From: Conexibacter sp. S30A1 | Lineage (GTDB): Bacteria; Actinomycetota; Thermoleophilia; Solirubrobacterales; Solirubrobacteraceae | Assembly: GCF_023330665.1 (NCBI RefSeq) | Contig: NZ_CP097127.1 | Location: 558,001-622,000 of the forward strand | Direction of reading: 5' to 3' | Length of the DNA stretch: 64,000 nucleotides | Shown: piece by piece, positions 5,760 through 12,909 of the stretch | Position numbering within the stretch: the first letter of the stretch is position 1 | Layout of the letters: each line of letters begins with the position of its first letter | Program-made: the position numbers and the translations under genes | Notes under the pieces: model-generated | What the model was told of the DNA's origin: nothing | The model's database searches: none | What the model saw: only the letters and a program-made list of their open reading frames with translations

Positions 5760-7289
5760 TCAGGCCTGTTGGACGAGCATCGCGTCGTGCAGCTGGGCAT
5801 GGGTGGGCACGTAGAGCCTGCCGTCCGGGGCACGGCGTCTGACCGGTACGGCGACCTGGCGCAGGCGCACCGTCATGGGCCGCTTCGCGCGCAGCTCGAG
5901 GATCCCGAAGTTGTGCACGCGGCGGCGCGCGACCACGTGAAAGCCGGGGGTCTTGTAGTGGCGGTCAAGCCGTGAGGGGACCAGGTTGCACTCCGAGCCC
6001 CACCAGCAGAAGCCCCCGAGGCCGCTGTGCGGCAGTGCGGCAACGACGTCGATCTCCGTGATCCGCCGCAGGGTGCTCTGCTTGGCGTAGCGCAGGTCGG
6101 GCAGGTACAGGTCAAGCGGCAGAATCCCCGGGTTGTACTGCACGACGATTATGCGCCCGTCGCGCCGGCTCTGGCCGGCTGCCGGCCAGCGCCCGAAAGC
6201 GGCGGCGACCAGCGCCCAGTTGGGCCGCTGGAAGGCGTAGGTGGTGTCCACGCTGAGCACCGCCGTGACTCCGATCGCGCACAGCAGCGCGGTCGCGCCG
6301 AGGCCCAGCAGGCGCCGGCGGGCGGCGCCCAGACCGGCCGCCAGGAAGATCGCAGCCGGCAGCAGGAGTGGCAGCAGGTTGCGCCCCAGGAACGTGTTGT
6401 AGCCGGGACCGGCGGCGATCAGGAATCCGGCCAGCGCCAGGCCGCCGGCCAAAAACGCGCCGCGCCGCTCGCGTCCGCGGGCCTCGCGCACCACCAGCAC
6501 GGAGGCCAGCGCGACGGTCGCGAGTGCGAGCAGCTCAAGCAGCGTGTGCAGGTGTGTCTGGGGACCGAGCAGGAACAGCCCCGGCACCTGTCGCAGGCGC
6601 AGCAGGTAGGAGGAGTTGGCGATCCAGCTGTTGTTGCCGGTGCGGTTCTGGGTCAGGGCCAGCGGCAGCAGGGCAAAGCCGGTTGCAGCCACCGCAGCCA
6701 GCGCCCCGTAGACAGCGCGCGCGCGCCGGTGACGGTAGAGCAGCCAGACCGCCTCCGGCACGACGGCGATCACCGCGTAATAGTGGGTCACCAGCGCCAC
6801 CGCGCAGGCGAGCGCCCACAGCGCCATCAACTTCGGCCGCGGATCCTCGAGCGCGTAGGCGAAGGCCCAGAGCGTGAGCGCGCAGGTCAGCACCATCAGC
6901 TCGTAGGCGCGCGTCTCCTGCGAGTACCAGATCAGCAGCGGGTTACAGGCCACCAGCGCGGTCAGGATGAGCGCCGCCCGGCGGCTCTCAAGCAGCTTGC
7001 GGGTGGCCGCGTAGGCCACCGGGATGGTGAGCGTCCCGAACAGCGCCGAAAGCGACTTCAGGGCGGCCGGGCTGAACCCGAAGATCCGCGCCCACGCCCA
7101 GGTGATCAGGTAGTAGAGCGGCGGCGTTGACTCGAGCTGCGGAATCAGCCCCAGCATCGTGCCTGAGCCATGCTTGACCAGGAACACGGTGTAGGACTCG
7201 TCGTACCAGAAGCCCTGGTGGCCGATATAGAAGAAGCGCAGGAACGCGCCGAGCGCTGTCAGCAGCACAACTGGCACGCGCGGCAGCAT
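5760..7289 (-). CDS. GT-C type integral membrane glycosyltransferase, paralogue 2
   Basis: This is a second member of the same family, colinear with the downstream gene. It begins MLPRVPVVLLTALGAFLRFF, then GHQGFWYDESYT with the catalytic-type Asp-Glu, ACNPLLIWYSQETRAYEL, and a C-terminal GFCWWGSECNL. The pair looks like a tandem duplication that has since diverged. The start at 7289 is chosen because the signal-anchor helix begins there; an Arg-rich in-frame extension to 7445 would overlap the divergent chorismate mutase gene. The sugar and acceptor cannot be told from sequence; lipid or cell-wall glycan glycosylation is likely. Confidence 0.8.
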   Translation of the reverse strand: MLPRVPVVLLTALGAFLRFFYIGHQGFWYDESYTVFLVKHGSGTMLGLIPQLESTPPLYYLITWAWARIFGFSPAALKSLSALFGTLTIPVAYAATRKLLESRRAALILTALVACNPLLIWYSQETRAYELMVLTCALTLWAFAYALEDPRPKLMALWALACAVALVTHYYAVIAVVPEAVWLLYRHRRARAVYGALAAVAATGFALLPLALTQNRTGNNSWIANSSYLLRLRQVPGLFLLGPQTHLHTLLELLALATVALASVLVVREARGRERRGAFLAGGLALAGFLIAAGPGYNTFLGRNLLPLLLPAAIFLAAGLGAARRRLLGLGATALLCAIGVTAVLSVDTTYAFQRPNWALVAAAFGRWPAAGQSRRDGRIIVVQYNPGILPLDLYLPDLRYAKQSTLRRITEIDVVAALPHSGLGGFCWWGSECNLVPSRLDRHYKTPGFHVVARRRVHNFGILELRAKRPMTVRLRQVAVPVRRRAPDGRLYVPTHAQLHDAMLVQQA

Positions 7290-7342
7290 GTCAGCTTTCG
7301 ATAAAGGCCGGGCAACGGCGTGTCTGCCACAATGCGCCGCCA

Positions 7343-7711
7343 ATGCAACGACTTTTCGCGCTGCGCGGCGCAAACAGCGTGGCTCGCAACGATGCCGCCG
7401 CGATCCTCGACGCCACCGATGAGCTGATGCGCGAGATGATCGCACGCAACGGGCTTGAGCCGGAGGCGATGGTCAGCTGCATCTTCACCCTGACAGCGGA
7501 CCTGGACGCGGAGTTTCCGGCCGTGGCGGCCCGCCAGCTTGGCCTGAGCCGTGTGCCGCTGTTGTGCACGCGCGAGGTGCCGGTGCCGGGCTCGCTGCCG
7601 CGTGTCGTGCGTACGCTGCTGCACTACTACGCCGAGGAGGATCACGTGCCGTCGCACGTCTACCTGAACGCGGCGCGCGTGCTGCGCTCGGACCTGGACT
7701 CGGCCCAGTAG
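7343..7711 (+). CDS. aroH: chorismate mutase, AroH class
   Basis: Monofunctional chorismate mutase converts chorismate to prephenate, the first step to Phe and Tyr. The 122-residue protein aligns well with the Bacillus AroH fold. FALRGANSVARND carries the N-terminal active-site Arg, AARQLG the second Arg, CTREVPV the Cys-x-x-Glu, VVRTLL the third Arg, and HVYL the Tyr. AroH-type mutases are rarer than the helical AroQ class. The gene is divergent from the glycosyltransferases and begins the aromatic cluster, 10 bp before the aminotransferase. Confidence 0.9.
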   Translation: MQRLFALRGANSVARNDAAAILDATDELMREMIARNGLEPEAMVSCIFTLTADLDAEFPAVAARQLGLSRVPLLCTREVPVPGSLPRVVRTLLHYYAEEDHVPSHVYLNAARVLRSDLDSAQ

Positions 7712-7714
7712 TCT
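7709..7714 (+). promoter_or_regulatory. TAGTCT -10-like element before the aminotransferase gene
   Basis: The hexamer begins at the aroH stop codon (TAG, 7709-7711) and ends 7 nt before the next ATG. It could be an internal leaderless promoter. Confidence 0.3.
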
Positions 7715-7721
7715 CGAGTCG

Positions 7722-8834
7722 ATGGCGATCGAGTTCGCGCAGAAGACCCGCAGGATCCCGGTTTACCCGGCGGCGGCCGGTTACAGTCTCGGTTCCGAGG
7801 TTGCCATGCTCGCCTCCAACGAGGCGGTGTTCGGACCGCTCGAGCCGGTCATCGAGGCGGCCCGCCGCGCGGTGATCGGCGCAAACCGCTATCCGGACCC
7901 CAGCTACCGCGAGCTGCGCGATGCGCTCGGTGAGCGCCACGGCCTGCCGGCCTCCCGGGTTGCGCTCGGCGCCGGCTCCTGTGACCTGCTCCTGGCCGCC
8001 GGCGAGGCGCTGCTCGAGCCCGGCGCAGAGCTGGTTTATGCCTGGCCGTCATTCAGCATGTATCCGCACCTGGCGGCGGCGACCGGCGCGCGCGCGATCG
8101 AGGTGCCGCTGACCGGTGAGGCGGTCCACGACCTGGAGGCGATGGCTGCCGAGATCACCGTCGCGACCCGGCTCGTGCTCCTCTGCAACCCCAACAACCC
8201 GACCGGCACCGCGCTTGAGCTGGGCGCCATCGCCGCGTTCCTGCAGCGCGTCCCCGACCACGTCTGCGTGATCCTCGACGAGGCCTACGTCGAGTTCTCG
8301 CTCACCGTCGGCGATCCGCTGGCCTCGCTCGAGCTGCTCGAGGCTCACCCGAACCTGGTGCTGCTGCGGACCTTCTCGAAGGTCTACGGTCTCGCCGGCC
8401 TGCGTGTCGGCTACGCGCTGTGCGGCAGTGAATCCTTCCGTGTCGCCGTCGACCAGGTTCGCCAGCCCTTCTACCTCAGCGCCGCCGCGCAGGCCGCGGC
8501 AACCGAGGCCCTGCGCCATCAGGATGCGGTCGAGCAGCGCGTAACCGCAACGGTCGCCGCCCGCACCGAGCTCACCGCGGCGCTTGCGCAGCGCGGCTAC
8601 TGGCTGCCCTCAAGCGACGCGAACTTCCTCTGGGTCCGGGTCTCGGACGAGGGGGCGGACGCCGACGTGGTGGCGGGCCTGCGCGAGCGTGGGGTGCTGG
8701 TGCGTGGTGGCAGCGCGCTTGGGGGCCCCGGCTTCCTGCGCGTGACCGTCGGGTCTGAGCGCGAGAACGCGCGCTTCCTCGCGGCGCTCGATGCGCTGAA
8801 CCCCGCAGGCGCCGGCCAGGGCGCCGGTCGGTGA
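7722..8834 (+). CDS. HisC-type PLP aminotransferase, probably aromatic
   Basis: This 370-residue fold-type I aminotransferase has the HisC-subfamily pattern. It shows MLASNEAVFGPLEPV at the N-terminus, NRYPDPSYRELRDAL, CNPNNPTGT, ILDEAYVEF, and RTFSKVYGLAGLRVGY with the PLP-binding lysine. HisC-like enzymes act on histidinol phosphate, aromatic 2-oxo acids or prephenate. The neighbours (chorismate mutase, DAHP synthase, prephenate dehydrogenase) favour transamination of phenylpyruvate, hydroxyphenylpyruvate or prephenate. A true histidinol-phosphate role cannot be excluded because no his genes are in view. Confidence 0.85.
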   Translation: MAIEFAQKTRRIPVYPAAAGYSLGSEVAMLASNEAVFGPLEPVIEAARRAVIGANRYPDPSYRELRDALGERHGLPASRVALGAGSCDLLLAAGEALLEPGAELVYAWPSFSMYPHLAAATGARAIEVPLTGEAVHDLEAMAAEITVATRLVLLCNPNNPTGTALELGAIAAFLQRVPDHVCVILDEAYVEFSLTVGDPLASLELLEAHPNLVLLRTFSKVYGLAGLRVGYALCGSESFRVAVDQVRQPFYLSAAAQAAATEALRHQDAVEQRVTATVAARTELTAALAQRGYWLPSSDANFLWVRVSDEGADADVVAGLRERGVLVRGGSALGGPGFLRVTVGSERENARFLAALDALNPAGAGQGAGR

Positions 8835-8840
8835 TACGCT
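8835..8840 (+). promoter_or_regulatory. TACGCT -10-like element of the aromatic leader
   Basis: The TANNNT hexamer overlaps the stop of the aminotransferase gene and ends 13 nt before the leader peptide ATG. This would give a transcript with a very short 5' end before the leader ORF. Confidence 0.45.
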
Positions 8841-8853
8841 GAGGTCCACGCGT

Positions 8854-8925
8854 ATGAGCGACTCAGCCCACAACACACTCGGCTGGTCCTGGTACGCGCG
8901 CTATTACGCCTGGCGATTTAGCTAG
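8854..8925 (+). CDS. aromatic-residue-rich leader peptide (23 aa)
   Basis: The ATG at 8854 opens a 23-codon ORF ending with TAG at 8923-8925. Its second half reads WSWYARYYAWRF: three Trp, three Tyr and one Phe in twelve residues. Such density is the hallmark of a ribosome-stalling leader peptide used to sense charged tRNAs, as in trp, phe and tyr attenuators. It sits 180 bp upstream of the DAHP synthase gene, the entry step for all three amino acids. It was too short for routine gene calling. Function is inferred from composition, position and downstream hairpins; translation has not been shown. Confidence 0.8.
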   Translation: MSDSAHNTLGWSWYARYYAWRFS

Positions 8926-9038
8926 GCGCTCGGCTGGCAGAACCCAGGGTCCTCGTCACAGGCGCGCGGCGGCCCATACGGGAGCCGAGCGCCGCACACG
9001 ATCCGCGCCAGCGCGGCGTAACCCGACCTCGCCGCTTT
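8925..9038 (+). promoter_or_regulatory. putative transcription attenuator before DAHP synthase
   Basis: The region after the leader peptide holds competing inverted repeats. GGCGCTCGGCT at 8925-8935 pairs perfectly with 8983-8993, and its 5' arm begins at the last base of the leader stop codon. CCGCG 9003-9007 pairs with 9012-9016. GCGGCG 9013-9018 pairs with CGCCGC 9030-9035, followed by TTT; this last hairpin is the best terminator candidate and excludes the previous one. A ribosome stalled at the late Trp/Tyr codons would cover the first arm and could switch the folding. No long U-tract is seen, so the mechanism is inferred. Confidence 0.6.
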
Positions 9039-9076
9039 GCGTACATTCAGTGCAGCAGTCCGAGAGGAAGCAGACG

Positions 9077-9106
9077 ATGAAACGCCACCGCATGAGGCAG
9101 CCGTGA
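9077..9106 (+). CDS. 9-codon upstream ORF coupled to aroG
   Basis: ATG at 9077 is preceded by a good ribosome-binding site (GAGAGGAAG, 9062-9070). It encodes MKRHRMRQP and stops at TGA 9104-9106, overlapping the aroG ATG as TGATG. It could couple aroG translation to that of the upstream ORF. It may equally be a chance ORF, because aroG has its own GAGG site at 9094-9097. Confidence 0.35.
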   Translation: MKRHRMRQP

Positions 9107-10191
9107 TGACCGTGATCCGTGCCACCCAGGCTGACGCAGTCCGCGATCAGCGGATCGAGCGCCTTGTCCCCCTGATCACGCCGCAGGAGCTCTTCGACGA
9201 GCTGCCGCTCGACGGCGAGCCGCTCGACGTGCTGCTGCGCGGTCGCGCCGCCGCGCATGCCGTGCTCGACGGCGTCGACGACCGCCTGCTGGTGATCGTC
9301 GGCCCGTGCAGCGTGCACGACGTCGATGCGGCGCGCGAGTACGCGGAGCGTCTGAGCGCTCAGGCACACCGGCTGCGCGAGGACCTGCTGATCGTCATGC
9401 GGGTTTACTTCGAGAAGCCGCGCACCACGATCGGCTGGAAGGGCCTGATCAACGACCCGCACCTGGACGGCTCCGGCGACGTCAACAGCGGCCTGCGCAT
9501 GGCTCGCCGGCTGCTGCTCGAGGTGCTCGGGCTCGGGGTGCCGGTCGGCTGCGAATTCCTGGACCCGATCACGCCGCAGTACATCTCCGACCTCGTCTCC
9601 TGGGGCGCAATCGGCGCCCGCACCACCGAGAGCCAGATCCACCGTCAGCTCGGCTCGGGCCTGTCGATGCCGGTCGGTTTCAAGAACGGAACCGACGGCA
9701 ACGTGCAGGTGGCGGTCGACGCGGTGCGGGCCGCCGCCGCCCGTCACGCATTCCCGGGCATCGACGCCGACGGCCGCTCGGCGATCCTGCACACCCGTGG
9801 CAACACCGACTGTCACATCATCCTGCGAGGCGGCAAGACGGGCCCAAACTACGACGCCGAGGCGGTGGCCGCGGCCGGCGAGCTGCTCGCCCGCGCGCAT
9901 CTCCCGCAGCGCCTGGTGATCGACCTCTCGCACGACAACAGCGGCAAGCGGGCCGAGCGCCAGCCGGAGATCGCCGTCGCGGTCGCCGAGCAGGTGGCGG
10001 CCGGGTCAAGGGCGATCATCGGCGTCATGGTCGAGTCGTTCCTGGTCGAGGGCAAGCAGTCAGCCGGGCCGCTCGAGAGCCTCACCTACGGGCAGTCGAT
10101 CACCGACAGCTGCATCGGCTGGGAGACGACCGTCGCGCTGCTCGAGACGCTCGCCGGGGCCGCGCGCGCACGCCGCGCGCAGAAGAGCTGA
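9106..10191 (+). CDS. aroG: 3-deoxy-7-phosphoheptulonate synthase (DAHP synthase, class I)
   Basis: DAHP synthase condenses phosphoenolpyruvate and erythrose 4-phosphate, the committed step to chorismate. The product from the ATG at 9106 is 361 residues and follows the enterobacterial AroF/G/H pattern. Recognisable segments are LLVIVGPCSVHD, RVYFEKPRTTIGWKGL, VGFKNGTDGNVQVA, RGGKTGPNYDAE and VMVESFLVEGKQ. The start MTVIRATQ is chosen over a longer in-frame GTG at 9037 because it fits the family length and has GAGG 8 nt upstream. The aromatic leader peptide and hairpins precede it. tyrA follows after 8 bp. Confidence 0.94.
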   Translation: MTVIRATQADAVRDQRIERLVPLITPQELFDELPLDGEPLDVLLRGRAAAHAVLDGVDDRLLVIVGPCSVHDVDAAREYAERLSAQAHRLREDLLIVMRVYFEKPRTTIGWKGLINDPHLDGSGDVNSGLRMARRLLLEVLGLGVPVGCEFLDPITPQYISDLVSWGAIGARTTESQIHRQLGSGLSMPVGFKNGTDGNVQVAVDAVRAAAARHAFPGIDADGRSAILHTRGNTDCHIILRGGKTGPNYDAEAVAAAGELLARAHLPQRLVIDLSHDNSGKRAERQPEIAVAVAEQVAAGSRAIIGVMVESFLVEGKQSAGPLESLTYGQSITDSCIGWETTVALLETLAGAARARRAQKS

Positions 10192-10199
10192 GCGCGCCC

Positions 10200-11018
10200 T
10201 TGCGGATCGCCGTCGTCGGACTGGGCTTGATCGGCGCCTCGCTCGGGCTGGCGGCGCGCGAGCATCTGGGCGCACACGTCTGTGGCTGGGACAGCGACCC
10301 GGAAGCCGTGCCGGCGGCGCTAGCGCTCGGGGCGATCGACTCCGGCGCCGGCCCGCTGGCCGGCGCCGTCGCCACAGCGGACGCGGTCTTCCTCGCCGCC
10401 CCGGTCGGGGCTCTGCCGGAGCTCGCCGCGACGGTGCTCGCCCAGGCCGCGCCGGGCAGCGTGATCAGCGACGTCGGTTCGACCAAACGGTCGCTGTGTG
10501 AGGCGGTCAGCGACCCCCGGTTCGTGGGCGGCCACCCGCTGGCGGGGGCCGAGAGCCGCGGCAGCGCCGGCGCGCGCGGCGACATGTTCACCGGCGCCAC
10601 CTGGTATCTGACACCCGGCCCGGCGACCGCACCTGCGACGCTCGCGACCGTGCGCGCGCTCGTGGAGGGCCTCGGCGCCAGACCGCTTACGATCGACCCC
10701 GCCCTCCACGACCGGCTGATGGCCAGCGTCTCACACCTGCCGCACGTCTTCGCAAACGTGCTGGTGAACGGGCTGCCCGCGACCGACAGCGAGCTCGCGG
10801 TGGGCCCGAGCTTCCGCGACGGCACCCGCGTGGCAGGCGCCAACAGCGAGTTGTGGAGCGACATCTTCCTTGACAACCGTGTCGCCCTCGACGCGGCCAT
10901 CGCCGAGGCGATCAGCGAGCTCACCGAGGTGCGGTCGCTGCTACAGCGCGGCGACCGGGACGGTCTGCGGCGGTTCAGCGACCGTGCCGCCGCCGCCCGC
11001 GCGAGGATCAGCCGGTGA
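10200..11018 (+). CDS. tyrA: prephenate (or arogenate) dehydrogenase
   Basis: TyrA oxidatively decarboxylates prephenate (or arogenate) on the way to tyrosine using NAD(P). The likely start is TTG at 10200, giving LRIAVVGLGLIGASLGLAA, a Rossmann GxGxxG at the very N-terminus. Further family motifs are ISDVGSTK, FVGGHPLAGAE and SHLPHVFANVL. The protein has 272 residues and no obvious ACT domain. No ATG or GTG fits the family N-terminus. The stop overlaps the aroA GTG by 4 bp. Confidence 0.9.
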   Translation: MRIAVVGLGLIGASLGLAAREHLGAHVCGWDSDPEAVPAALALGAIDSGAGPLAGAVATADAVFLAAPVGALPELAATVLAQAAPGSVISDVGSTKRSLCEAVSDPRFVGGHPLAGAESRGSAGARGDMFTGATWYLTPGPATAPATLATVRALVEGLGARPLTIDPALHDRLMASVSHLPHVFANVLVNGLPATDSELAVGPSFRDGTRVAGANSELWSDIFLDNRVALDAAIAEAISELTEVRSLLQRGDRDGLRRFSDRAAAARARISR

Positions 11019-12301
11019 GCGGGCTGGCGCGGGTGGCGCCGGGCCGGACGCGCGAGCGCTTCGCGGTCAGGGTGCCGGGCTCCAAGAGCATCACCAACCG
11101 GGCCCTGCTGCTGGCCGGCGTCGCCGCCGGGCGCTCCACGCTGCGCGACGGGCTCGACGCCGACGACACGCGGGCCATGCGCGACGCCCTGCGCAAGCTC
11201 GGCGTCGGCATCAGCGAGCACGCGGGCGATGACGGTACGTTGCGCTGGGAGGTGGACGGCCTCGGCGGGCCGCCATCAGGCCCGGCGCAGGTGTACTGCG
11301 GCATGGGTGCGACCGTCGGTCGCTTCCTGGTGCCGATGCTGGCCGCCGGCAGCGGCAGCTTCAGCCTCGACGCGCACCAGCAGCTGCGCCGCCGGCCGCT
11401 CGGCCCGGTGCTGGCCGCCCTGCGTAGCCAGGGCGCGCGGATCACCGGCGAGGCGTTCCCGCTCCAGATCGACGCGGATGGGTTGGACGGCGGCACGGTC
11501 GCGGTCGACGCTTCGATCTCAAGCCAGTTCCTGTCTGGGCTGATGATGGCGGCCCCGTTTGCCCGCGACGACACTACGCTTCAGTTCCAGACGCTCGTCA
11601 GCCGACCGTACCTGGAGCTGACACTCGACGCGATGCGCGCCTTCGGCTCGACCCCACGCGTCGAGCCGGGCGCGGTCACGGTCGCGCGCGGTGGCTACCG
11701 GGCCGCTGAGTTCACGGTTGAACCGGACGCCTCGACCGCCTCCTACTTCCTGGCGGCCGCCGCGCTGGCGCCAGCGACCGTCACGCTCACGGGGCTTGAC
11801 CGCCGCCGCACCGCCCAGGGTGACATCGAGCTCGTGACCCTGCTTCAGCGCATGGGCGCCACCGTCAGCGACGGCGCCAGCGTCGAGCTCAGCGGGCCGG
11901 CGCAACTGCGCGGGATCGAGGCGGACATGAACGGCAGCTCCGACGTGTTCATGACGCTCGCCTGCGTGGCCGTGTTCGCCGACGGCCCGACCACGATCAC
12001 CGGCATCGGCCACGCGCGCGTCAAGGAGACCGACCGCATCGCCGCCTGCGCTGAGAACCTGCGGCGGCTCGGCATCCGCGTCGAGGAGGGTCCCGGGCAC
12101 ATTCGCATCCACCCCGGCACGCCACGCCCGGACGTGCGCATCGCGACCTACGAGGATCACCGTGTGGCGATGGCCTTCGCGCTGATCGGCACCCGCGTGC
12201 CGGTGCTGATCGAGGAGCCGGCGGTGGTAGCCAAGACCTGCCCGGCGTTCTTTGACCTGTGGCGGCTGACCGGAGCGTCGGTCAGCATGGAGCAGGGCTG
12301 A
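11015..12301 (+). CDS. aroA: 3-phosphoshikimate 1-carboxyvinyltransferase (EPSP synthase)
   Basis: AroA joins shikimate 3-phosphate and phosphoenolpyruvate to make EPSP, the sixth shikimate-pathway step. The 428-residue enzyme has VPGSKSITNRALLLAG at the N-terminus, CGMGATVGRF in place of the more usual GNAGTxxR region, ASISSQFLSGLMMAAP, and the late RVKETDRI signature. The aroA-cmk arrangement is common in bacteria. Its TGA overlaps the cmk ATG (TGATG). The glycine-rich PEP-loop variant is worth noting when predicting inhibitor sensitivity but is not unusual enough to doubt function. Confidence 0.93.
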   Translation: MSGLARVAPGRTRERFAVRVPGSKSITNRALLLAGVAAGRSTLRDGLDADDTRAMRDALRKLGVGISEHAGDDGTLRWEVDGLGGPPSGPAQVYCGMGATVGRFLVPMLAAGSGSFSLDAHQQLRRRPLGPVLAALRSQGARITGEAFPLQIDADGLDGGTVAVDASISSQFLSGLMMAAPFARDDTTLQFQTLVSRPYLELTLDAMRAFGSTPRVEPGAVTVARGGYRAAEFTVEPDASTASYFLAAAALAPATVTLTGLDRRRTAQGDIELVTLLQRMGATVSDGASVELSGPAQLRGIEADMNGSSDVFMTLACVAVFADGPTTITGIGHARVKETDRIAACAENLRRLGIRVEEGPGHIRIHPGTPRPDVRIATYEDHRVAMAFALIGTRVPVLIEEPAVVAKTCPAFFDLWRLTGASVSMEQG

Positions 12302-12909
12302 TGGTGATCGCGATCGACGGGCCCTCGGGCGCTGGTAAGTCGACGGTCGCGCGTGCGGTGGCGGCGGCGCTCGGCTTGCGCTACCTGGACACTGGGGCGA
12401 TGTACCGCTGCGTGGCGCTCGCCAGCCTGCGCCGCACCACGCCGGCTGCCGAGCTGGCCGCCGGCGTGCAGATCGAGCTCGGCGAGCGCGTGCTTTTGGA
12501 CGGCGAGGACGTCACCGAAGCGATCCGCGCCCCGGAGGTCTCGGCACGGGCTTCGCAGGTGGCCGCCGACCCGGATGTGCGCCGCGAGCTGACCGGCGCC
12601 CAGCGGCGCCTGCTCGAGCACGGCGACTGGGTGGCGGAGGGACGCGATATCGGCACGGTCGTCGCGCCGCAGGCGGAGGTCAAGGTTTATCTGACCGCGC
12701 GCGAGGACGAGCGTGCGCGCCGGCGCGCGGTCGAGCTCGGCTTAGACGCCGAGGCCGTGCTCGCGTCACAACGGCTGCGAGATGCGCGCGATGAGACCCG
12801 TGAACAGGCGCCGCTGCGTCCCGCTGACGGCGCGATCGTGATCGATACAAGCGGCCTGACGCCCGAGCAGGTGGTGGCCCGGATCGTCGCGCTTGCCGCG
12901 GGCCGCTAG
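12301..12909 (+). CDS. cmk: (d)CMP kinase
   Basis: Cytidylate kinase phosphorylates CMP and dCMP with ATP. The ATG at 12301 overlaps the aroA stop and opens MVIAIDGPSGAGKSTVARAVA with the P-loop GPSGAGKST at residues 7-15. The segments RYLDTGAMYRCVA, VAEGRDIGTVVAP and DARDETREQAPLRPADGAIVIDTS follow as expected. At 202 residues it is slightly shorter than the Escherichia enzyme (about 227). Confidence 0.93.
   Translation: MVIAIDGPSGAGKSTVARAVAAALGLRYLDTGAMYRCVALASLRRTTPAAELAAGVQIELGERVLLDGEDVTEAIRAPEVSARASQVAADPDVRRELTGAQRRLLEHGDWVAEGRDIGTVVAPQAEVKVYLTAREDERARRRAVELGLDAEAVLASQRLRDARDETREQAPLRPADGAIVIDTSGLTPEQVVARIVALAAGR

Follow-up and report, generated by a model that had tools for sequence, protein, structure and literature searches.

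A leader peptide with Trp, Tyr and Phe codons before DAHP synthase genes, a putative translational attenuator conserved in the order of Conexibacter sp. S30A1

A short open reading frame (ORF) with Trp, Tyr and Phe codons precedes the DAHP synthase gene of Conexibacter sp. S30A1, and most sampled genera of its order retain this arrangement, before two enzyme classes. The best model across relatives, which we hold with slightly more belief than doubt, is a leader-peptide translational attenuator of DAHP synthase that would read Trp, Tyr and Phe. The comparison of relatives supports the ORF, its Trp/Tyr/Phe content, an excess of a rare Tyr codon, covariation in a stem (P1), and complementarity between leader codons and the ribosome-binding site (RBS) of the synthase gene, as is predicted for a helix here called P0. 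The model is weaker at the locus of the window, i.e., the whole 64,000-nucleotide stretch of DNA that was analysed, than across relatives, and the P0 step is weakest there. DAHP synthase feeds three end products, and how a single regulatory RNA could integrate them all is a genuine design problem. The well-known leader attenuators respond to a single amino acid or a single chemical family, whereas closely packed codons for all three products are present here.

In the window, the leader is set in an aromatic-pathway cluster, which comprises genes for chorismate mutase, a HisC-like aminotransferase, the leader, DAHP synthase, and EPSP synthase (NCBIfam names; Table 1). An ORF between the last two genes resembles prephenate dehydrogenase and is a candidate for this enzyme. 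The class I-beta DAHP synthase query had no match in the window's own genome. Rfam at the gathering cut-off gave no match in the window or in eight related loci; two sub-threshold matches were both to snoRNA families, far under their cut-offs. NCBIfam had no match for the window leader or five other leaders. A tRNA search of the window found none, and a tRNA-like element was rejected.

Table 1. Positions of the leader, its candidate RNA elements, and the neighbouring genes in the window.
Feature	Position	Strand	Basis or remark
Chorismate mutase	7343-7711		NCBIfam
HisC-like aminotransferase	7722-8834		NCBIfam
Extended -10-like box TGATACGCT, probable leader promoter	8832..8840	+	Sequence; 13 nt before leader start
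Leader ORF MSDSAHNTLGWSWYARYYAWRFS-stop	8854..8925	+	Sequence; leaders of relatives
Candidate P0, 5' strand, GTACGCG	8892..8898	+	Across leader Tyr-Ala codons; 7 pairs, one G-U
Near-invariant block TGGCGATTTAGCTAGGCG	8911..8928	+	Last four sense codons, stop, first stem bases; frequencies in 151 instances
Stem P1, 5' arm	8925..8935	+	Perfect inverted repeat
Stem P1, 3' arm	8983..8993	+	Perfect inverted repeat
Two overlapping hairpins and TTT	9003..9035	+	Near relatives only; outside conserved element
Candidate P0, 3' strand, TGCGTAC	9038..9044	+	About 18 nt upstream of Shine-Dalgarno-like site
TACATT, -10-like box upstream of RBS	9042..9047	+	Possible second promoter
Shine-Dalgarno-like GAGAGGAA	9062..9069	+	Sequence
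9-codon ORF MKRHRMRQP-stop	9077..9106	+	Stop overlaps DAHP synthase start (TGATG); strong own Shine-Dalgarno
Class I-alpha DAHP synthase	9106..10191	+	TIGR00034 aroFGH, E 8.4e-148
EPSP synthase	11015-12301		NCBIfam

A sequence-only reading of this DNA had proposed a 23-codon aromatic leader ORF that serves as a combined sensor of the three end products. The ORF is exact (ATG at 8854, TAG at 8923-8925, 23 codons with 3 Trp, 3 Tyr, and 1 Phe), and its terminal codons, stop, and following stem recur before DAHP synthase across the window's order. The leader ends in a block, TGGCGATTT[A/C]NCTAGGCG, that is fixed even at synonymous sites and in the bases after the stop. The DNA pattern TGGCGATTTNNCTAGGCG was searched with at most one mismatch and was found in 175 of 232 genomes of the order and in 45 of 54 genera; the same pattern read backward, used as a control, was found in 11 of 232 genomes. 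Across the phylum, a stricter pattern matched 10 of 396 genomes, all ten in the window's order, from which 14 genomes had been drawn. Within the pattern tolerance, CGA, TTT, and TAG are fixed, an apparent invariance that is inflated by the one-mismatch search itself, and the last sense codon varies at its middle base (S, T, I, and others). In a search by protein only, class I-alpha DAHP synthase was found in 27 of 101 genomes of the window's family, and a WRFx-stop leader, with any Arg or Phe codon and any stop allowed, lay upstream in 17 of the 27 loci. All 17 leaders use TGG CGA TTT and TAG, followed by GCG.

Among the matches listed, 155 distinct sites were obtained, and 151 are followed by a DAHP synthase gene, which is class I-beta at 101 sites and class I-alpha at 50. 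Some of the 155 sites came via the protein search, so the count was redone with loci found by the pattern only. These 118 loci contain 115 distinct sites (again among the matches listed), of which 111 precede DAHP synthase, with class I-beta at 94 and class I-alpha at 17. Sites without DAHP synthase downstream were dropped (L154, L162, and L252, which are chance-like, and L233, where the stretch ends soon after), and five listed pattern matches were left out (four with one mismatch each, namely G045 C1, a second place in G040, G177 C112, and G029 C3, and one in G161 near a contig end). In the genomes without the pattern, the beta protein was present in 31 of 38. Thirty of these loci were inspected; seven carry a diverged leader (L275, L276, L281, L283, L288, L292, and L298), and in the others no leader was seen or the stretch ends early. 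In other families of the taxonomic class, the leader was seen in none of 20 loci, and the stricter pattern had no match there. Pattern matches in a phage collection (L142-L144) lie within a coding region with a stop directly before TGG and were attributed to chance.

The Trp, Tyr, and Phe codons were checked for conservation in relatives. All three residues occur in the last 14 codons of 148 of the 151 leaders with DAHP synthase downstream among the matches listed; the exceptions (L222, L243, and L245) each have no Tyr there. Tyr is the informative residue because Trp and Phe belong to the search pattern and Tyr does not. It stands at most 10 codons before the block in 108 of 111 pattern-fetched leaders, compared with 116 of 1707 (7%) random stop-free windows from the same loci. 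The aromatic positions drift among leaders (YAYAYAYAWRFR, GFGFAYPGFGFAYRCGWRFS, and ARLSYRSWRFS). Five of the seven diverged leaders are without the block's Trp or Phe, and all five have the lost residue upstream (WSYLRFI, WRAYPRFT twice, WSWRAYRFI, and SFYPYWRTV). In the 12 codons before the block, Tyr is encoded by TAT in 124 of 280 cases (44%) vs 16 of 701 (2%) in the synthase genes; for Phe, TTT accounts for 16 of 109 (15%) before the block vs 20 of 629 (3%). Codon use in leaders is also loosened in general (Arg CGT 27% vs 7%, Ala GCT 12% vs 4%, Ser TCC 53% vs 28%), and the rare-codon excess partly reflects this general loosening, though the loosening is smaller than that for Tyr. Tyr enrichment, residue replacement, and codon use fit a device that reads codon supply and argue against a purely peptide- or RNA-sequence function. 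A combined Trp/Tyr/Phe sensor is the natural reading, and such putative sensing is well supported by comparison; one switch probably lets the cell sense a shortage of any of the three aromatic products. A frameshift beyond the stop was considered and rejected (median ORF lengths in the other frames, 35 and 43 codons vs 29 and 32 in shuffles).

The 11-bp inverted repeat that the same reading had placed at the stop codon is also exact, with 11 nt of 100% complementarity, and it starts on the final base of the stop codon. Checked for covariation in relatives, P1 shows compensatory changes. The alignment comprised 47 of 49 diverse sequences (48 were listed, and L238 was omitted) drawn from 122 sequences anchored on CGCCG; 89.8% of cells pair, and 7 of 11 pairs vary on both sides. 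Both-side changes were counted in 34 cells vs 13.8 in shuffles, and none of 500 shuffles was as high. The number of further pair types was unexceptional (14 vs 12.1 in shuffles, 48 of 500 as high). Pairing fell to 34-47% when the partner was slid out of register. The CGCCG anchor itself selects in part for the outermost pairs. When the anchor took no account of the inner pairs, which was feasible for 122 of 151 instances, pairing exceeded every permutation only at positions 18, 19, and 24. Exchange of the inner 5' arm between instances lowered the mean inner score only from about 6.1 to 5.8 in a hand calculation, and this exchange costs P1 little because the arms hardly vary. The P1 tables cover 149 of 151 instances. 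The fold of the whole leader in the window was only modestly better than that of shuffles (z -1.85, 7 of 200 shuffles as good). P1, which begins at the stop codon and covaries, is thus a conserved RNA structure placed for ribosome control.

Duplex scans revealed that the last codons of some leaders are the exact complement of the bases beside the Shine-Dalgarno (SD) sequence of the synthase gene. The scans used 132 and 129 of the 151 instances, the RBS-anchored set comprised 126, and 76 remained after near-duplicates were removed; loci with no recognisable start or RBS, extreme spacing, or too little upstream DNA were dropped from the P0, RBS, and promoter sets. Among 12 leader windows, only -20 to +10 clearly exceeded swaps against the SD-proximal segment (t=5.0, next 1.8; 129 instances). 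Only two of 10 downstream windows, both at the SD, exceeded swaps for the leader (t=4.9 and 3.2, next 1.8). A 14-nt scan gave an antidiagonal, antiparallel band over the SD, as expected of a helix (t up to 4.1). With the 76 non-redundant instances, 0 of 20,000 permutations reached the real value, either without restriction or within strata of synthase class and of one base following the block, and three control windows were null (p 0.47-0.97). Many leaders have no long helix, which counts against the model: runs of at least seven consecutive Watson-Crick pairs occur in 31 of 132 instances, vs 119 of 1320 swaps (9%) and 33 of 660 shuffles (5%). When G-U pairs were allowed, the mean gain was small (6.76 vs 6.24). 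With the first RBS after P1, the excess held for class I-beta (t=2.7, 49 instances) and was weaker for class I-alpha (t=2.1, 28 non-redundant). With a poorer RBS assignment, wrong at several loci including that of the window, class I-alpha gave t=0.9 (48 instances), 0.4 (32 non-redundant), and 0.9 (14 of the window's genus), which are null.

Compensatory pairs were also seen within single genera. One genus has GCTTGG/CCAAGC and TCCTGG/CCAGGA (L184-L188). A second genus has CACGCCTGG/CCAGGCGTG (L220), CTACGCCTGG/CCAGGCGTAG (L223), and CTCCTGG/CCAGGAG (L222); in this group, a run of at least seven pairs is present in 7 of the 16 leaders listed, and L219, L224, L229, L231, and L232 have only 4-6. 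Complementarity between putative regulatory codons and the SD region was thus found across relatives. Taken alone, the P0 of the window (Table 1) is weak. In folding, masking of the aromatic codons raised the mean SD openness from 0.40 to 0.48 (p 2e-5; 51 gains and 17 losses above 0.1), and two control masks had no average effect. Folding of the window itself was mixed. The site at 9062-9069 is 0.62-0.63 open with or without a stalled ribosome; with the stalled ribosome, openness rises from 0.40 to 0.62 at the 9077 start and falls at a second site near 9092 (from 0.69 to 0.54 in one run and from 0.66 to 0.44 in another). The mixed window folding and the early class I-alpha nulls count against the translational model and slightly lowered our confidence in it.

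In the translational model, a dedicated promoter would drive the leader ORF, and the transcript would have almost no 5' UTR. As long as charged Trp-, Tyr-, and Phe-tRNA are available, the ribosome would clear the aromatic codons, terminate at UAG, and leave. P1 would then form just past the stop, enclosed by P0, in which the last codons of the leader (roughly -18 to +3 relative to the block's TGG) would pair at or just 5' of the synthase RBS and lower initiation. When any one aromatic aminoacyl-tRNA is short, the ribosome would stall and cover the 5' strand of P0, so that the RBS stays open. No codon of the three amino acids is farther from P0 than about one ribosome footprint, so the device would act as an OR gate for shortage. 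We infer that control has this direction, that translation is the step controlled, and that the weaker P0 of the window acts in the same way.

The upstream sequences are consistent with a promoter close to the leader. In 124 of 144 instances, an in-frame leader start has a -10-like box 4-18 nt ahead of it, vs 3 of 144 in a control 60 nt further up, and an SD-like site is present in 13 of these 124 leaders. Because the box is close to the start and the SD is rare, the 5' UTR of the leader is probably very short or absent. A sigma-70 consensus scan of positions 7000-12400 gave no promoter-like site, and a single terminator-like site was found, on the minus strand at 7250. A TANNNT box precedes the synthase RBS by 32 to 4 nt in 79 of 126 instances, vs 2 and 1 of 126 in two windows further upstream; it may be a second promoter whose transcripts bypass the leader. 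By eye, such a box was also seen before the synthase RBS of leaderless loci (e.g., L277-L280). The mini-ORF that overlaps the synthase start in the window has counterparts of 9-10 codons, mostly Arg-rich, in eight kin loci (L082-L086 and L110-L112).

The main alternative is transcription attenuation, in which P1 serves as an antiterminator, a downstream hairpin and U-run serve as the terminator, and the position of the ribosome on the aromatic codons decides between them. The sequence-only reading had assigned this role to two mutually exclusive hairpins. Both can be drawn in the window (9003-9016, CCGCG-CCAG-CGCGG; 9013-9035, GCGGCG...CGCCGC followed by TTT) and do overlap, at 9013-9016, but they are not conserved beyond near relatives. 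A hairpin with a T-run is present in five of the nine near relatives listed, the window included (L082-L084, L110, and L112), and by eye some aromatic leaders at other class I DAHP synthase loci are likewise followed by one. Against this, a hairpin and T-run between the stem and the RBS occurs in 11 of the 125 instances scanned vs 7 per shuffled set, and only 17 of 132 instances have at least five T in any interval 8-mer. No conserved partner was found downstream for the 3' arm of P1 (mean z +0.30, 127 instances), and the stretch leading up to the start codon folds less well than its shuffled versions (z +0.67, 61 instances). A terminator with a U-run exclusive of an antiterminator, as in the classical trp type, was not found across the set. 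The proposed competition of hairpins is not supported by these results, and since the hairpin and T-run are confined to near kin, a terminator, if real, is a local feature. We consider transcription attenuation unlikely as the general mechanism.

The translational model does not account for the near-invariance of CGATTTANCTAGGCG. This sequence and P1 could instead form a site for a regulatory protein or a ligand-binding RNA, with the leader ORF secondary. Near-invariant unpaired bases beside a covarying stem are the usual sign of such a site, and a protein-binding role has been proposed for the LEU element in the available text of PMC1262725. A site of this kind leaves the drifting Tyr, the replaced Trp and Phe, and the TAT excess unexplained, and we judge it improbable. 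Pairing of the block with a 16S locus (L325) was considered and rejected, as no match was found with up to three mismatches. A wider proposal is a portable module, i.e., a three-way OR gate whose codons mask the RBS, with an invariant 15-nt recognition sequence of a new kind, kept while the enzyme class was exchanged; this proposal is tentative, and we doubt it somewhat more than we believe it.

Rho-dependent attenuation has a slim chance. P1, timed by the ribosome, would hide or expose a C-rich Rho-loading stretch between the leader and the gene. C exceeds G in the leader (0.40/0.27), the P1 loop (0.40/0.31), and the stretch after P1 (0.39/0.28), with balanced composition in the synthase genes; the interval is weakly structured, and Rho is suggested for actinobacterial cys leaders in the text available from PMC1262725. 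The composition bias is modest, and complementarity between codons and the RBS is not predicted by Rho.

Least probable, and very unlikely, is arrest by the nascent peptide, in which an aromatic amino acid would cause the WRFx-UAG end to stall the ribosome translating it at the stop; the stop directly follows WRFx in 150 of 151 leaders (exception L112) and Trp is lost once (L158, RRFS), a conservation of W, F, and stop that is partly imposed by the search pattern, but the block is fixed at the synonymous sites of CGA and TTT and beyond the stop, several residues occur directly before the stop (S/T/I/R/L/M), and diverged relatives swap the W or F of the motif (LRFI, PRFT, YRFI, and WRTV). In TnaC, arrest occurs in response to free Trp. 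Conservation of a residue independently of its codon, as in a TnaC-like peptide, was not found in the 17 protein-chosen loci, all of which use CGA and TTT.

The leader is found before either class of DAHP synthase, I-alpha or I-beta. In some relatives (L088, L095, L115, L118, and similar loci), the leader, a beta gene, and an alpha gene stand in tandem. A beta-like start of the first protein or mini-ORF was seen at 14 of 46 class I-alpha loci, as judged with a loose expression used without a control (MIIGMQEGAKRD vs MMIVMKEGATED). Such starts, e.g., MIIGMQEGAK vs MMIVMKEGAT, were observed at L092, L099, L124, L167, L168, L170-L175, L179, L181, and L253. It can be inferred from these sequences that alpha may have taken the place of beta under an unchanged leader, perhaps on more than one occasion.

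Leaders at DAHP synthase genes look common in a wider survey. A short ORF with at least four aromatic residues in eight was found at 38 of 78 class I DAHP synthase loci of named genomes, i.e., those with enough upstream DNA among the best 80 of a longer list (L002-L081); the controls gave 4 on the reverse strand and 1 in the downstream stretch, where this was long enough. The loci with such an ORF span many phyla and include Rhodococcus, Burkholderiales, Bradyrhizobium, Xanthomonas, and an Anaerolineae genome. Several leader types were observed: MSAKFYFYFFWYLRPLADREG in Burkholderiales, YFWYFSYDSSLAAGGSRSI in Bradyrhizobium, YFWFSRPAPGG in Rhodococcus and Amycolatopsis, and YFSFFSWYGYF in the Anaerolineae genome. 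Actinomycete leaders (L010, L018, L021, L035, L051, and L076) mostly share the codons TAT TTC TGG TTT AGC AGG CCG GCC, which are perhaps a distant version of the block. No description of the Trp/Tyr/Phe leader studied here was found in searches of an open-access library. If pairing of codons with the RBS is confirmed, it would back translational attenuation of the doubted LEU-element type as a recurrent actinobacterial mechanism and would offer a three-input sensor ready for use. The invariant block poses a puzzle that can be tested directly.

Short ORFs with codons for the end product, on which the position of the ribosome decides, are known from the trp, phe, and his leader attenuators, which have an antiterminator, a terminator, and poly-U. 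The present leader differs in having none of these three elements conserved and in carrying codons for three amino acids. The trp leaders of Corynebacterium and Streptomyces are treated in the text available from PMC1262725. The sequence-only reading had held that attenuators of class I DAHP synthase genes are little described outside enterobacteria and trp-linked genes in actinobacteria; two further cases have been described or proposed. In Corynebacterium glutamicum, the aroR leader before aroF, a DAHP synthase gene, has been described (Neshat et al., 2014, as reported in parts of PMC11802643 and PMC4046766). According to these parts, it is a Phe-Tyr-Phe leader that responds to Phe limitation and not to Tyr availability, and its mechanism is called transcription attenuation. 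Both are actinobacterial aromatic leader peptides before DAHP synthase genes, in aroR an operon whose expression rises on ribosome stalling; in contrast to the Phe-Tyr-Phe of aroR, the present leader combines Trp, Tyr, and Phe with an invariant block, P1, and complementarity between codons and the RBS, with no conserved terminator. The second case is the uORFC-13-1 motif before aroF of Acholeplasma, proposed to be an attenuator in the accessible part of PMC8632094. It is likewise an upstream ORF with an aromatic codon before DAHP synthase, whereas its codon is for Phe only, an intrinsic terminator is adjacent, and the phylum is another. The closest likeness in the RBS pairing is to the LEU element of actinobacterial leuA, which has leucine codons and for which a pseudoknot was proposed (Seliverstov et al., 2005; available text of PMC1262725). 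As compared by its description there, its regulatory codons are also complementary to the SD region of the gene. The same text doubts the role of the codons and states that conserved unpaired bases are absent; the two elements thus differ in amino acid and gene, leucine and leuA there, and in the conserved unpaired bases, which are prominent only in the leader described here.
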